From Maridesulfovibrio ferrireducens (GTDB lineage: Bacteria; Desulfobacterota; Desulfovibrionia; Desulfovibrionales; Desulfovibrionaceae): DNA of 64,000 nt. Where the stretch lies: contig NZ_JAEINN010000009.1 of the NCBI RefSeq assembly GCF_016342405.1, forward strand, positions 1 through 64,000. The letters are read 5' to 3'. Under the pieces are notes generated by a model that did not search any database, had not been told where the DNA came from, and worked only from the letters and a program-made list of their open reading frames with translations. A program made the translations under genes and the position numbers. Positions 11,217 through 19,857 of the stretch are shown piece after piece. Each line of letters opens with the position of its first letter. The stretch's first letter is position 1.

Positions 11217-11248
11217 TAAAAAAAAACCCCTGAACAAAATTCAAGGGC
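11217..11248 (-). terminator. terminator of the fmdB-type operon
   Basis: CCCTGAA/TTCAAGGG pair across a short loop, and the A-run at 11219-11226 gives a U tract on the minus strand after the hairpin. The convergent glycosyltransferase gene ends just before it, so it may work both ways. Confidence 0.7.
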
Positions 11249-11292
11249 TTAAATTACATTTTTGCTTTCCGCCCGGAAAGCTTAGTCTAACC

Positions 11293-11523
11293 TCATGAAA
11301 ATCCGCCAGCCCCACATCCCCCCGCTCCGGAACCTCCGGATGGCGAAGAATATGAACCGTTTCCGGAACTTCCGTCAGACAAATGACCAATGCAAGCCGA
11401 AATCAATTTGATAGTATCCTGACTTCCGCAGGATAAACATTCAGGAGATTCAGAATTTGAAACTGAAACCAACTCCTCAAAAATATGCCCGCATTTATTG
11501 CATTTATATTCATAAATAGGCAT
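11293..11523 (-). CDS. FmdB-family zinc-ribbon protein
   Basis: A 76-residue protein beginning MPIYEYKCNKCG, the hallmark of the FmdB/CxxC-CxxC regulatory zinc ribbon. The four ligands are C8, C11, C29 and C32. A Gly/Ser-rich tail holds one further cysteine (GGCGAGG). The molecular role of the family is not established. The start follows AGGGA at good spacing and lies three bases after the stop of the TGA-containing gene at 11527-11682, so the two are one operon. A terminator lies 45 bases after its stop. Confidence 0.88.
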   Translation of the reverse strand: MPIYEYKCNKCGHIFEELVSVSNSESPECLSCGSQDTIKLISACIGHLSDGSSGNGSYSSPSGGSGAGGCGAGGFS

Positions 11524-11526
11524 AAA

Positions 11527-11682
11527 CTATTTTCCCTTACGTCCTGTCTTCTTTTTTACATCAGACTGCGCACGGCAGCCTCCAGCAGGACGTCACGGCT
11601 GAATTCCAAGTTTAGGCATAACAAACTTAAGTAAAATAAAGACTCCACCGACAACGGCAAGAAGACCTAGTAAATCCATCAT
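11527..11682 (-). CDS. probable 51-residue membrane selenoprotein with in-frame UGA
   Basis: Read with TGA (11593-11595) as selenocysteine, the gene gives 51 residues: a membrane helix (about residues 3-22), then MPKLGIQP, Sec30, then RPAGGC and a basic tail KKKTGRKGK ending at TAG. GAGGT lies six bases before the first of two adjacent ATGs (11682 or 11679). Immediately after the TGA, GGCUGC (11580-11575) pairs with GCAGUC (11569-11564) around a five-base CGUGC loop whose second base is G, 18 bases from the UGA; this matches the known bacterial SECIS layout. CGUCCUG and CAGGACG (11592-11586 / 11546-11540) add an outer stem. Without readthrough a 29-residue helix remains and 21 open codons ending three bases before fmdB would be unexplained. 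Sec30 and Cys36 could form a selenenylsulfide pair. Function is unknown. Confidence 0.78.
11540..11592 (-). promoter_or_regulatory. SECIS-like hairpin following the UGA codon
   Basis: The apical stem is six pairs including one G-U (11580-11575 with 11569-11564) with loop CGUGC; the distance from UGA to loop is 18 bases, within the 16-37 known for bacterial elements, and one of the first two loop bases is G. A perfect seven-pair outer stem begins at the base directly after the UGA. Confidence 0.7.
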
Positions 11683-11785
11683 ATCAGACCTCACAAGATT
11701 ATTTCTGGTTCATATACCAAGTAACGATTGCATCGAAAAAGTCAATCGCAAGACAAAGAACCAATCTCGAATAATGATACCATTC

Positions 11786-13516
11786 TTAATATTCTAGATC
11801 TACATAAAATGAAAAAGTTGACCCCTCACCCATCAGACTTTCTACCGAAAGGACCCCACCCATCATTCCAACCAACTTACGTGAAATAGGAAGACCTAAA
11901 CCGGTTCCACCATATTTTCGAGAAGTTGACGAATCCGCTTGAGTAAAACTTTCAAAAATAGTGCTAATCTTATCCTGCGGTATCCCTATCCCTGTATCTG
12001 AAACAGAAAAAACAATTCTTGCTGCATCATCTACAGCAACACAAACTTCAACAATTCCTTCGCCGGTAAATTTTATGGAATTACTGATTAAATTTGTCAA
12101 AACCTGCCGGATGCGTGTCGGGTCCCCGATCACTTTTTCAGGAACTGCATCTGTCACCTTGCAGAGAATTGTAAGCCCTTTTTTAGCGGCTTCTACATTA
12201 AGCACAGACACAACCCTTTCTATCATTTCACGAAGAATAAATTGATGCTTCTCAATTTCTAAATATCCCGCTTCTATCTTAGAAATTTCAAGAACATCAT
12301 TTATAACTTCAAGCAGCGACTCCCCCGCAGTCCCTGTCACTTCCAAAAAATATTTTTGATCGTTGTCCAGCTTTGTCTCTTTAAGCAATTCAACCATTCC
12401 AATAATCGAGTGCATAGGTGTACGTATCTCATGACTCATGTTCGCCAAAAATTCACTTTTAACTCTATTGGCAACTTCAGCCCGTTCTTTCTCTTCCTGC
12501 ACGAGGTCCAAAGTAGCATTTATTGAATCCGAAAGATCAGTCAATTCGTCATCACCATTTAGTCTCACCTGCAAACGCCTCTCTCCTCCGGTAATACCTT
12601 CAGTAACGCCTTCGGTCCCGTCCGCAAAAAGTTGAGCTTTAAGATTTTCAACACGTGATACAAAAAAATAATTCACAAAAAAATAAGTACAAGCCCCGAT
12701 AACAATCAAAATTGCCAAAGAAAAATACATAAAATTAAAGGTCATAGACGAGCATATGGCATAAATATCCTGTCCCATTTTCAACTTAAGCGAAACAAGA
12801 GGTTTACCGAGAACATCCTTCAAAACCTTATAGCCTACAGCGGGAACGCCCACAAAAGAAGAAGAATCAAAAAAGACTCCGTCTTCCTTATTATCCTGCA
12901 ACTCAGTTAATGAAAGCTGCATATGAAGATTTTTTCCTAATTCTACGATATCTTCGTCTCCAAAAAAACGGCCCATGACCAACGTTCCGCGTGGCTCTTT
13001 ATCCATTAAGCTGTTCATTATTTTATGAGAAGAAATCATAACAATTGAGTGAGAAATTCTAAGCAGACCGCTTTTACCTTCTTTTCCTGTAGCCTCAATT
13101 AAAGCCTTTCCATTGCCTCCCTCGTGAATGAAACATCGTTGAACATCATCAGTACTAACAGTGGAGTGTGCGTCAAAGATCTTCCCGTCATTATCGATAA
13201 ATAAGACAAAATCCACATTCAAAGTATTAAATACTTCTGGAACGAGATTCGAGCTGATAAATTTTTCATTATGATCTTTCATAAATTGGAAAGATCCATC
13301 CCACCATGCCCAGTCACTACATGAACGACCTAGCTCTTCTATTGATTTTGATACCGCATAAAAAACACGATCAAAATTTTCTTCAACCAAAGACTTCTCG
13401 ATCAGATATGAACTGTGCTTCATAAACTGAGAAATGCCGCCCCATGATCCTATCAGCATAGTTGCGCACATAAGCAAAACGCCAACCATAGTCTTAGTTT
13501 TTAAACTAACTCTCAT
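11786..13516 (-). CDS. CHASE4-domain sensor histidine kinase
   Basis: A 576-residue membrane sensor. An N-terminal helix (about 10-30) and a second helix (about 258-285) bracket a periplasmic CHASE4 domain with the typical DWAWWD motif near residue 68. A HAMP-like linker follows, then a HisKA domain with phospho-acceptor H362 in NMSHEIRTP, and an HATPase domain with the DTGIGIP and GGTGLGLPISRKL boxes. It ends shortly after the catalytic domain, with no receiver, so a separate response regulator is needed; none is adjacent. AAGGAG lies seven bases before the ATG. It lies upstream of the selenoprotein gene with a 103-base gap. Confidence 0.9.
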   Translation of the reverse strand: MRVSLKTKTMVGVLLMCATMLIGSWGGISQFMKHSSYLIEKSLVEENFDRVFYAVSKSIEELGRSCSDWAWWDGSFQFMKDHNEKFISSNLVPEVFNTLNVDFVLFIDNDGKIFDAHSTVSTDDVQRCFIHEGGNGKALIEATGKEGKSGLLRISHSIVMISSHKIMNSLMDKEPRGTLVMGRFFGDEDIVELGKNLHMQLSLTELQDNKEDGVFFDSSSFVGVPAVGYKVLKDVLGKPLVSLKLKMGQDIYAICSSMTFNFMYFSLAILIVIGACTYFFVNYFFVSRVENLKAQLFADGTEGVTEGITGGERRLQVRLNGDDELTDLSDSINATLDLVQEEKERAEVANRVKSEFLANMSHEIRTPMHSIIGMVELLKETKLDNDQKYFLEVTGTAGESLLEVINDVLEISKIEAGYLEIEKHQFILREMIERVVSVLNVEAAKKGLTILCKVTDAVPEKVIGDPTRIRQVLTNLISNSIKFTGEGIVEVCVAVDDAARIVFSVSDTGIGIPQDKISTIFESFTQADSSTSRKYGGTGLGLPISRKLVGMMGGVLSVESLMGEGSTFSFYVDLEY

Positions 13517-13564: not shown

Positions 13565-13599
13565 TAAAAAAAAAGAAACCGGATTAATACCCGGTTTCT
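13565..13599 (-). terminator. terminator of cysS
   Basis: GAAACCGG (13575-13582) pairs with CCGGTTTC (13591-13598), followed on the minus strand by a U tract of about nine. It lies 31 bases after the cysS stop. Confidence 0.85.
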
Positions 13600-13629
13600 T
13601 TAATAACTGATTTATGTCGTGTTGTTATT

Positions 13630-17314: not shown

Positions 17315-17397
17315 AAAAATACTCCCTTCAACCCACACTCCTCCCGCGACCGCAGGATAAAATCAAAATATGGCCAGGGGAAGAGTCAAAAAAAAAA

Positions 17398-17770
17398 GAT
17401 GGAGTCGGACTGTAAGCCGGGTCTTGTTCCCGATAAAAATCGGGATGATCATCATTCCTCTAGGACGCATGTTACCATACGCCTCAAGCAACCTACCCGA
17501 AAGCTTCAGCCGGGCCGGCCTCAAACGCTTCCCTATTTGGTCTTGCTCCGGACGGGGTTTACCTAGCCGACCATGTCACCATGGCCGCTGGTGGGCTCTT
17601 ACTCCACCGTTTCACCCTTACTCCGGTGTATAAAACACCGGGGCGGTCTGTTTTCTGTGGCACTTTTCCCGGAATCACTTCCGCTGGGAGTTACCCAGCG
17701 TCCTGCCCTGCGGAGCCCGGACTTTCCTCCCCGGTTTTACAACCGCGGCGATGATCCGTCCAACTCCATC
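17398..17770 (-). ncRNA. rnpB: RNase P RNA (type A)
   Basis: The minus strand contains the conserved GAGGAAAGUCCGGGCUCC segment (near 17735-17715) and the 3' conserved part with GUAGGUUGCUUGAGGC-like sequence near 17505. The ends pair as the P1 helix: GAUGGAGUUGGAC at the 5' end with GUCCGACUCCAUC at the 3' end, one G-U. About 373 nt. The U-run directly after P1 (A-run at 17388-17397 on the plus strand) serves as the 3' terminator. It processes the 5' ends of tRNAs. Open frames in this stretch on the plus strand are spurious. Confidence 0.95.
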
Positions 17771-19781: not shown

Positions 19782-19857
19782 TGGTGGGCCAACCAGGACT
19801 TGAACCTGGGACCATCCGGTTATGAGCCGGGGGCTCTACCAACTGAGCTATTGGCCC
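19782..19857 (-). tRNA. tRNA with CAT anticodon (tRNA-Ile2 or elongator tRNA-Met)
   Basis: A 76-nt cloverleaf with GGGCCAA/TTGGCCC acceptor stem, D arm AGCTCAGTTGGTAGAGC, anticodon loop CTCATAA, T arm GGTTCAAGTCC and an encoded CCA end. CAT is read by Met, or by Ile if the C is converted to lysidine. The acceptor pairs C4-G69 and C5-G68 match those known to favour the lysidine synthetase TilS in E. coli, which leans toward Ile2. It is not the initiator type, as the first pair is G-C. Confidence 0.95.

Follow-up and report, generated by a model that had tools for sequence, protein, structure and literature searches.

The window, by which we mean the whole 64,000-nucleotide stretch of Maridesulfovibrio ferrireducens DNA analyzed here, contains on its minus strand a gene that, on comparison with its relatives, almost certainly encodes a genuine selenoprotein, with selenocysteine (Sec) at an in-frame TGA. 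The preliminary description of the locus had proposed a small membrane selenoprotein at this place, and the reading is supported by the presence of sel genes, by homologs with Sec or Cys at the same column, and by a hairpin with the layout of a bacterial SECIS (bSECIS) element. Judged from sequence matches, the gene has relatives throughout the phylum and is one member of a larger family, which that description had not foreseen.

The selenoprotein gene and its surroundings

The features of the locus are the following.

11527..11682, minus strand: selenoprotein gene, 51 amino acids, Sec at codon 30, stop codon TAG at 11527-11529, assigned with the help of its relatives
11593..11595, minus strand: Sec-encoding TGA, codon 30, with TGA in 161 of 163 relatives' entries
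11688..11694, minus strand: Shine-Dalgarno-like GTGAGGT, purine-rich, ahead of ATG ATG
11611..11679, minus strand: predicted single membrane helix, residues 2-24, from the AlphaFold2 model
11563..11581, minus strand: bSECIS-like hairpin core, 7-bp stem, 5-nt loop CGTGC at 11574-11570
11293..11523, minus strand: fmdB-family zinc-ribbon gene (TIGR02605, 61.6 bits; PF09723, 60 bits)
11786..13516, minus strand: sensor histidine kinase gene, ∼100 bp upstream of the selenoprotein start
11224..11250, minus strand: terminator-like site past fmdB, consensus match only
13572..13601, minus strand: terminator-like site upstream of the kinase gene, consensus match only

On the minus strand, positions 11682-11527 read MMDLLGLLAVVGGVFILLKFVMPKLGIQP-TGA-RPAGGCRAQSDVKKKTGRKGK-TAG. 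The purine-rich binding site (11694-11688) followed by ATG ATG, the membrane helix, the TGA at codon 30 (11595-11593) with its open tail, the TAG three bases ahead of the fmdB ATG (11523), and the hairpin, whose loop begins 18 nt past the TGA and has G in its second position, were all found as the preliminary description had placed them. A purine-rich 4-mer also precedes 132 of 157 distinct relatives, whose starts were partly chosen by that 4-mer. The window kinase was most similar to TorS and BarA, in their kinase cores, with both matches below the respective cut-offs. Because the sensor kinase gene, the selenoprotein gene, and fmdB lie between two terminator-like sites, the three could form one transcription unit. 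The Rfam matches obtained in the window at the gathering threshold were RNase P RNA class A (17397-17767, minus strand) and a tRNA gene (19785-19857, minus strand), and no SECIS family was reported among them.

Conservation of the TGA, the downstream codons, and the hairpin

All 16 genomes sampled from the window's genus, the window's own included, carry the gene with its in-frame TGA. In the window's family, a 20-row profile (E ≤ 0.01) matched 80 of 199 genomes and 24 of 44 genera, and a looser tblastn search with the window protein reached 138 of 199 genomes at E ≤ 1, much of which is chance; among the 80 genomes, G036 has a Cys form and G131 gave a doubtful partial match without the stop and had no selB match. 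Across the phylum, 168 of 395 genomes and 112 of 246 genera were matched by a 40-row profile (E ≤ 0.001), and among the phylum matches listed, two without the stop (G513 and G498) end ahead of the Sec column. Relatives were encoded by 115 of 126 pattern-matched stretches from a collection of named species, and the best 80 of these 115 all have TGA at the Sec column. Isolates bearing the family include Desulfacinum infernum, Desulfacinum hydrothermale, Desulfuromusa kysingii, and Malonomonas rubra, and relatives also occur in bins labelled Planctomycetota, Spirochaetota, and KSB1. Locus L168 is on a contig labelled Chloroflexi, but the end of its gene is identical over 100 bases to that of L194 and its neighbors match those of L179 and L194; we take it to be of Desulfuromonadales type and the bin to be, in all likelihood, contaminated. 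Three loci of one genus, g29 (L064, L065, and L066), contain two tandem selenoprotein genes, the second being of the GMRGUMPRPPDVWETP type with no Cys past Sec, and L078 and L079 diverge from the other members, having LPSUGQ and a greater distance between Sec and Cys.

The Sec column was read in 163 entries, made up of 43 genes from 40 loci, 80 named-species loci, and 40 phylum loci, the two 40-locus sets having been picked for diversity from the 80-genome family matches and from the 168-genome phylum matches. TGA was present in 41, 80, and 40 of the entries of these three sets, respectively; the exceptions were one Cys form (L087) and one doubtful entry lacking TGA (L080), the latter dropped from later counts, and neither TAA nor TAG was found at the column in any of the 163 entries. 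With repeats removed (five entries that represented the same place as another), TGA occupied the column in 156 of 158 distinct cases, and the counts that follow are given either as entries or as distinct places. Genes read in addition, such as those of the window's genus and of Planctomycetota, are outside these totals. The open reading frames of L156 and L177 had been called too short and were read on, that of L177 having begun just past the in-frame TGA. The family was also found in 27 of 294 Planctomycetota genomes, with TGA in 23, Cys forms in three (motifs PTCMSGGC, QTCLSGMC, and QTCLSGLC), and a partial match without the stop, outside both classes, in one (G690); the ten Planctomycetota loci that were read, of 15, comprised eight clear TGA forms and two Cys forms. 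The preliminary description had pointed to Sec- or Cys-containing homologs and to sel genes as the evidence that would bear on its reading. Sec-type homologs are present in the window's family and across the phylum, Cys replaces Sec once in the window's family (L087) and three times in Planctomycetota, and the sel genes of the window's genome are described below.

To compare the coding signal on the two sides of the TGA, pN/pS values were calculated; they were 0.32 ahead of the TGA, 0.62 for the first 12 codons past it, and 0.97 past the stop, the first two figures deriving from 1373 non-independent pairs of 155 genes and the control pairs being unfiltered by Sec-Cys spacing. By this measure, the codons past the TGA are under purifying selection. 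The loci L156, L177, L197, and L087 were left out of this set and of the hairpin-shuffle set. The window hairpin has the 7-bp stem AGGCTGC/GCAGTCT, and the part of the gene that runs from the TGA up to the stop has a folding energy of −22.8 kcal/mol (z = −3.4), with 0 of 200 shuffles as low. For the family as a whole, the bSECIS rule (G in the first two loop positions, 16-37 nt from the UGA, ≤ −7.5 kcal/mol; PMC13188914) was used with our own hairpin scan (loops of 4-9 nt, two closing pairs forced) rather than bSECISearch, and the best hairpin was picked per gene, with real and shuffled sequences treated alike. A hairpin of ≤ −7.5 kcal/mol was obtained for 88% of 155 genes versus 40% of synonymous shuffles, the mean best hairpin was −10.7 versus −6.8 kcal/mol, the loop was 5 nt long in 120 of the 155 genes, and the real hairpin was better than all 20 shuffles in 39 of the 155 where approximately seven were expected. 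As far as such comparisons tell, the SECIS-like hairpin is kept beyond synonymous shuffles.

Within the window's genus, the stem is rebuilt from other bases as the residues change (GGCRAQ versus GKGSRGD), and both sides were altered at four of seven pairs in eight full stems versus zero or one when the alignment was slid. These eight rows are the distinct ones among nine full 7-bp stems of 16 genus rows; because they were selected for a full stem, their 100% pairing is by selection, and the evidence lies in the compensatory changes. Seven of the 16 hairpins of the genus have only 3-6 pairs in a simple scan. No fixed hairpin register was found across the family, as the position of the hairpin shifts by codons, and the family-wide signal at fixed registers is diffuse for that reason. 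If the UGA were a plain stop, the product would be a 29-residue membrane peptide and the remainder would be coincidental; a standard gene caller would indeed end there, and a start, a binding site, and a helix are all in place for such a peptide. Against this reading stand the conservation of the downstream codons across several phyla, the purifying selection, the conservation and covariation of the hairpin, and the Cys replacement, and we regard it as highly improbable, a plain stop or pseudogene being ruled out by pN/pS, by the hairpin in comparison to shuffles, and by Cys replacement.

The window's genome contains selA (608 bits, cut-off 268) near selB (375 bits, cut-off 242), as well as a tRNA-Sec (80 bits) to which ARAGORN assigned the anticodon TCA. 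In the phylum sample, selB was matched (E ≤ 1e-60) in 160 of 168 family-bearing genomes versus 193 of 227 family-free genomes (p 0.0009, the sets having been compared by hand from two lists). All eight family-bearing phylum genomes without a selB match have a tRNA-Sec above the gathering score; when G022, G077, G109, and G174 of the family sample are included, this is true of 11 of 12, and the sole one under the score is G022, whose genome is 67% complete. Among family-bearing genomes from outside Desulfobacterota, tRNA-Sec was found in nine of ten tested. In Planctomycetota (E ≤ 1e-9, stricter filters), tRNA-Sec was detected in 19 of 23 TGA-bearing genomes, the remaining four being without a match, and in G690 (1 of 1), in comparison to none of the three Cys-form genomes (Fisher p 0.013 for Cys-form versus TGA-bearing genomes). 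It was also detected in 14 of 20 family-free Planctomycetota (the first listed of 267), so that family presence alone is not tightly tied to tRNA-Sec. The Cys form L087 occurs in a genome that retains selB, and machinery loss therefore does not explain it. Coding evidence alone does not name the residue, and the UGA might instead be read through as another amino acid by a suppressor tRNA, a reading that the linkage to SelB or tRNA-Sec disfavors and that, with the bSECIS-type hairpin and the Cys replacement, is left with very little probability. In the selenoprotein reading, SelA, SelB, and tRNA-Sec would decode UGA codon 30 as selenocysteine, with the hairpin 18 nt downstream as the guide.

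Comparison with known families

Scans of 20 members (alignment A1) in Pfam and NCBIfam, of 38 members (alignment A5) in NCBIfam, and of a few further members gave no match over the cut-offs, the best E value in all of them, 0.016, being at chance level, and a profile search of the PDB returned zero matches at E ≤ 1. The deep-Sep hypothetical proteins DG, DW, and DF may have models in NCBIfam, where the scanned members had no match. The 119 families and subfamilies in Table 1 of PMC13188914, a table that holds no sequences, included no match by name or motif, and the portions of PMC5029168 and PMC1242214 available to us name nothing similar. We consider it very probable that the family is undescribed, an earlier mention elsewhere, such as in supplements, being conceivable. 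With the prokaryotic selenoproteins catalogued in PMC13188914 the family shares a Sec-UGA, a bSECIS-like hairpin, a redox-type Sec/Cys pair, and Cys-form homologs, and many of the catalogued motifs are UxxC or CxxU, most characterized selenoproteins having a thioredoxin-like fold; it differs in that none, in the portions of the catalogue available to us, is described as a 50-residue single-helix membrane protein with P[KR]xGxxU. Sec forms of FmdB (TIGR02605) are predicted from the GOS metagenome according to the accessible text of PMC2398784, and FmdB is a recurrent neighbor of the new family, but the window FmdB retains its cysteines and the Sec is in a separate small membrane protein.

The YgaP-like transmembrane domain (PF11127) has a C-terminal KLGxxxC that resembles PKLGxxU/C, and hhalign of alignment A5 against one PF11127 member aligned 14 columns with a probability of 59%. 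The PF11127 family has a longer membrane part, however, and no PF11127 match was found among the family members scanned; we rejected a kinship with YgaP, the likeness being weak and confined to these 14 columns. The eukaryotic selenoproteins K and S (SELENOK and SELENOS) are small single-pass membrane proteins with Sec in a charged tail. The bacterial family is like them in its small single-pass membrane architecture with Sec in a charged tail; it differs from them in having Sec just past the helix instead of at the end and in its bacterial SECIS. The two are likened by architecture alone, and by this analogy the likeness is likely convergent. SelS is described in the accessible text of PMC3628699 as a membrane protein of the unfolded-protein response, with a proposed Sec-Cys bond.

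Predicted architecture, neighboring genes, and possible function

The window protein has one membrane helix, followed by Sec30, by a Cys, and by a basic tail. The consensus of the 80 named loci comprises a short start, the helix, N[RK]W[VI]LP[KR][LM]G[VI]xTU[ML]SxSC, and a charged tail; the N-to-G stretch served as the search pattern for these loci, and its conservation there is thus by selection. The AlphaFold2 model (pTM 0.37) shows helix 2-24 and a flexible tail, its confident part being the helix only (block pLDDT of 89 for residues 1-20). The mean net charge in 159 entries is −0.7 for the first four residues versus +2.7 from the helix end on, a distribution that by the positive-inside rule indicates an N-out, C-in topology and suggests that the Sec end faces the cytoplasm. 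Of 154 distinct genes, 145 have a Cys at +5 to +8 from Sec and four have no Cys past Sec; among the 80 named loci, the Cys is at +5 in 77. The partner Cys can be absent from this place, and several species of the window's genus have a Cys near the C-terminus instead. In most members, P[KR]xGxxU with a Cys five to eight residues on would place a selenol at the membrane surface beside a thiol.

We infer a function as a membrane-anchored selenol/thiol relay, for redox equivalents or sulfane sulfur, and judge the chances that this is correct to be evenly balanced. The product would be a 51-residue single-pass inner-membrane protein in which Sec and Cys may alternate between the selenol/thiol and selenenylsulfide states or may hold sulfane sulfur as a selenopersulfide. 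Reducing power or sulfur would be relayed between thioredoxin-like cytoplasmic partners and membrane-bound targets, and the relay would act during envelope, redox, or sulfide stress.

The genes beside the family also allow a regulatory selenoprotein, in which a small membrane redox sensor uses its Sec/Cys pair to modulate the neighboring CpxA-like kinase or FmdB zinc ribbon, and we hold this to be possible though rather unlikely. In 17 of the 80 named loci (16 distinct), the gene is preceded at 50-83 bp by that of a CpxA-like kinase; in the window's genus, a different kinase is found ∼100 bp upstream. CpxR-like and CpxA-like genes are situated just upstream in 16 named loci (15 distinct), 12 of which also have a Spy/CpxP-like gene; the Cpx-bearing loci are mostly labelled Desulfuromonadales, Desulfuromonadaceae, Geobacteraceae, or genera of that group, and the best NCBIfam scores for one example each were 326 (CpxA), 241 (CpxR), and 43 bits (CpxP), all below the equivalog cut-offs. 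An FmdB zinc ribbon is encoded within 220 bp on the same strand, on either side, in 22 entries, corresponding to 21 of 154 distinct loci (16 with FmdB upstream and five with it downstream), one further locus has an FmdB domain in its flanks at 1085 bp, and fmdB follows 3-4 nt downstream in 10 of the 16 genomes of the window's genus by a simple motif test. Against a sensor that serves these partners, both FmdB and a kinase are missing beside the gene in most loci, many Desulfovibrionaceae-type copies are near what we take to be purC, hisD, and the run rpsF-rpsR-rplI-dnaB, presumably housekeeping genes, and the stress response could equally have the family among its targets.

We found no one partner gene that is conserved throughout, as no Pfam family, among the families listed (25 of 67), recurred in more than two of 78 further neighbor open reading frames, which had been picked by hand from 117 candidates. 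Open reading frames called at GC-rich loci include shadow frames (clusters 0 and 4 of the neighbor clustering), and the neighbor claims therefore rest on clusters common to several loci. A thioredoxin- or redoxin-like gene adjoins in four loci, two of them checked with Pfam. The Cys forms L270 and L271 (Planctomycetota G767 and G824) lie between genes for a metallo-beta-lactamase/rhodanese fusion and an SQR-like Pyr_redox_2 flavoprotein, which we take to be a persulfide dioxygenase-rhodanese and a sulfide:quinone reductase, with gene ends that overlap or are a few bases apart; the domains were checked with Pfam in L270, L271 being similar to it by sequence, and this sulfide-operon context is that of two closely similar Cys forms. 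The third Planctomycetota Cys form has a YgaP-like transmembrane gene 135 bp downstream. Neighborhoods of this range, housekeeping runs included, speak for a general relay at the membrane, for redox equivalents or sulfur, rather than for a dedicated subunit, the mechanism being our inference. A gene for what is presumably a MerR-like small regulator is present upstream in L135, L144, L147, L217, L235, and L239.

Selenium or metal handling, in which the Sec/Cys end and basic tail would bind selenide or a soft metal at the membrane in a process shared with FmdB, is a less likely function than the sensor. It is consistent with a soft-ligand pair near the membrane and with zinc-ribbon neighbors, namely FmdB at 21 loci and a small CxxC-rich protein downstream at six; the latter follows in L139, L140, L143, L146, L148, and L203, and one example had no NCBIfam match. 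No recurrent metal or selenium gene was seen beside the family, however, and a cluster that we take to be TRAP-permease-like, which recurs in seven loci, is 0.6-4.4 kb away.

Returning to the proposed relay, we tentatively suggest, as a reading less probable than the relay function itself, that these proteins are a previously unrecognized, nearly Sec-only family of micro-selenoproteins, present in about two of every five Desulfobacterota genomes sampled and reaching into Planctomycetota, Spirochaetota, and KSB1. They would be bacterial analogues of SELENOK and SELENOS that may move sulfane sulfur or electrons, in the form of a selenopersulfide or selenenylsulfide, on the inner side of the membrane and may be wired to envelope stress and sulfide metabolism. 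Bacterial selenoprotein searches lean on Cys homologs, as the deep-Sep authors state of their own method in the accessible text of PMC12013277, where Sec families without Cys homologs are said to be liable to being filtered out and all known families seemed to have such homologs. Such searches also favor proteins long enough to be called. The new family is weak on both counts, with Cys forms in one of 163 entries plus the three of Planctomycetota and with 29 codons ahead of the stop. Its occurrence in 168 of the 395 sampled phylum genomes suggests that current counts of selenoproteins in sulfate and metal reducers are too low, and very small selenoproteins may form a class of their own. The family offers a concrete, predicted membrane selenol with a possible role in sulfur or envelope stress, and, if true, the parallel use of a single-helix selenoprotein by bacteria and by the eukaryotic ER would represent a striking case of convergence.
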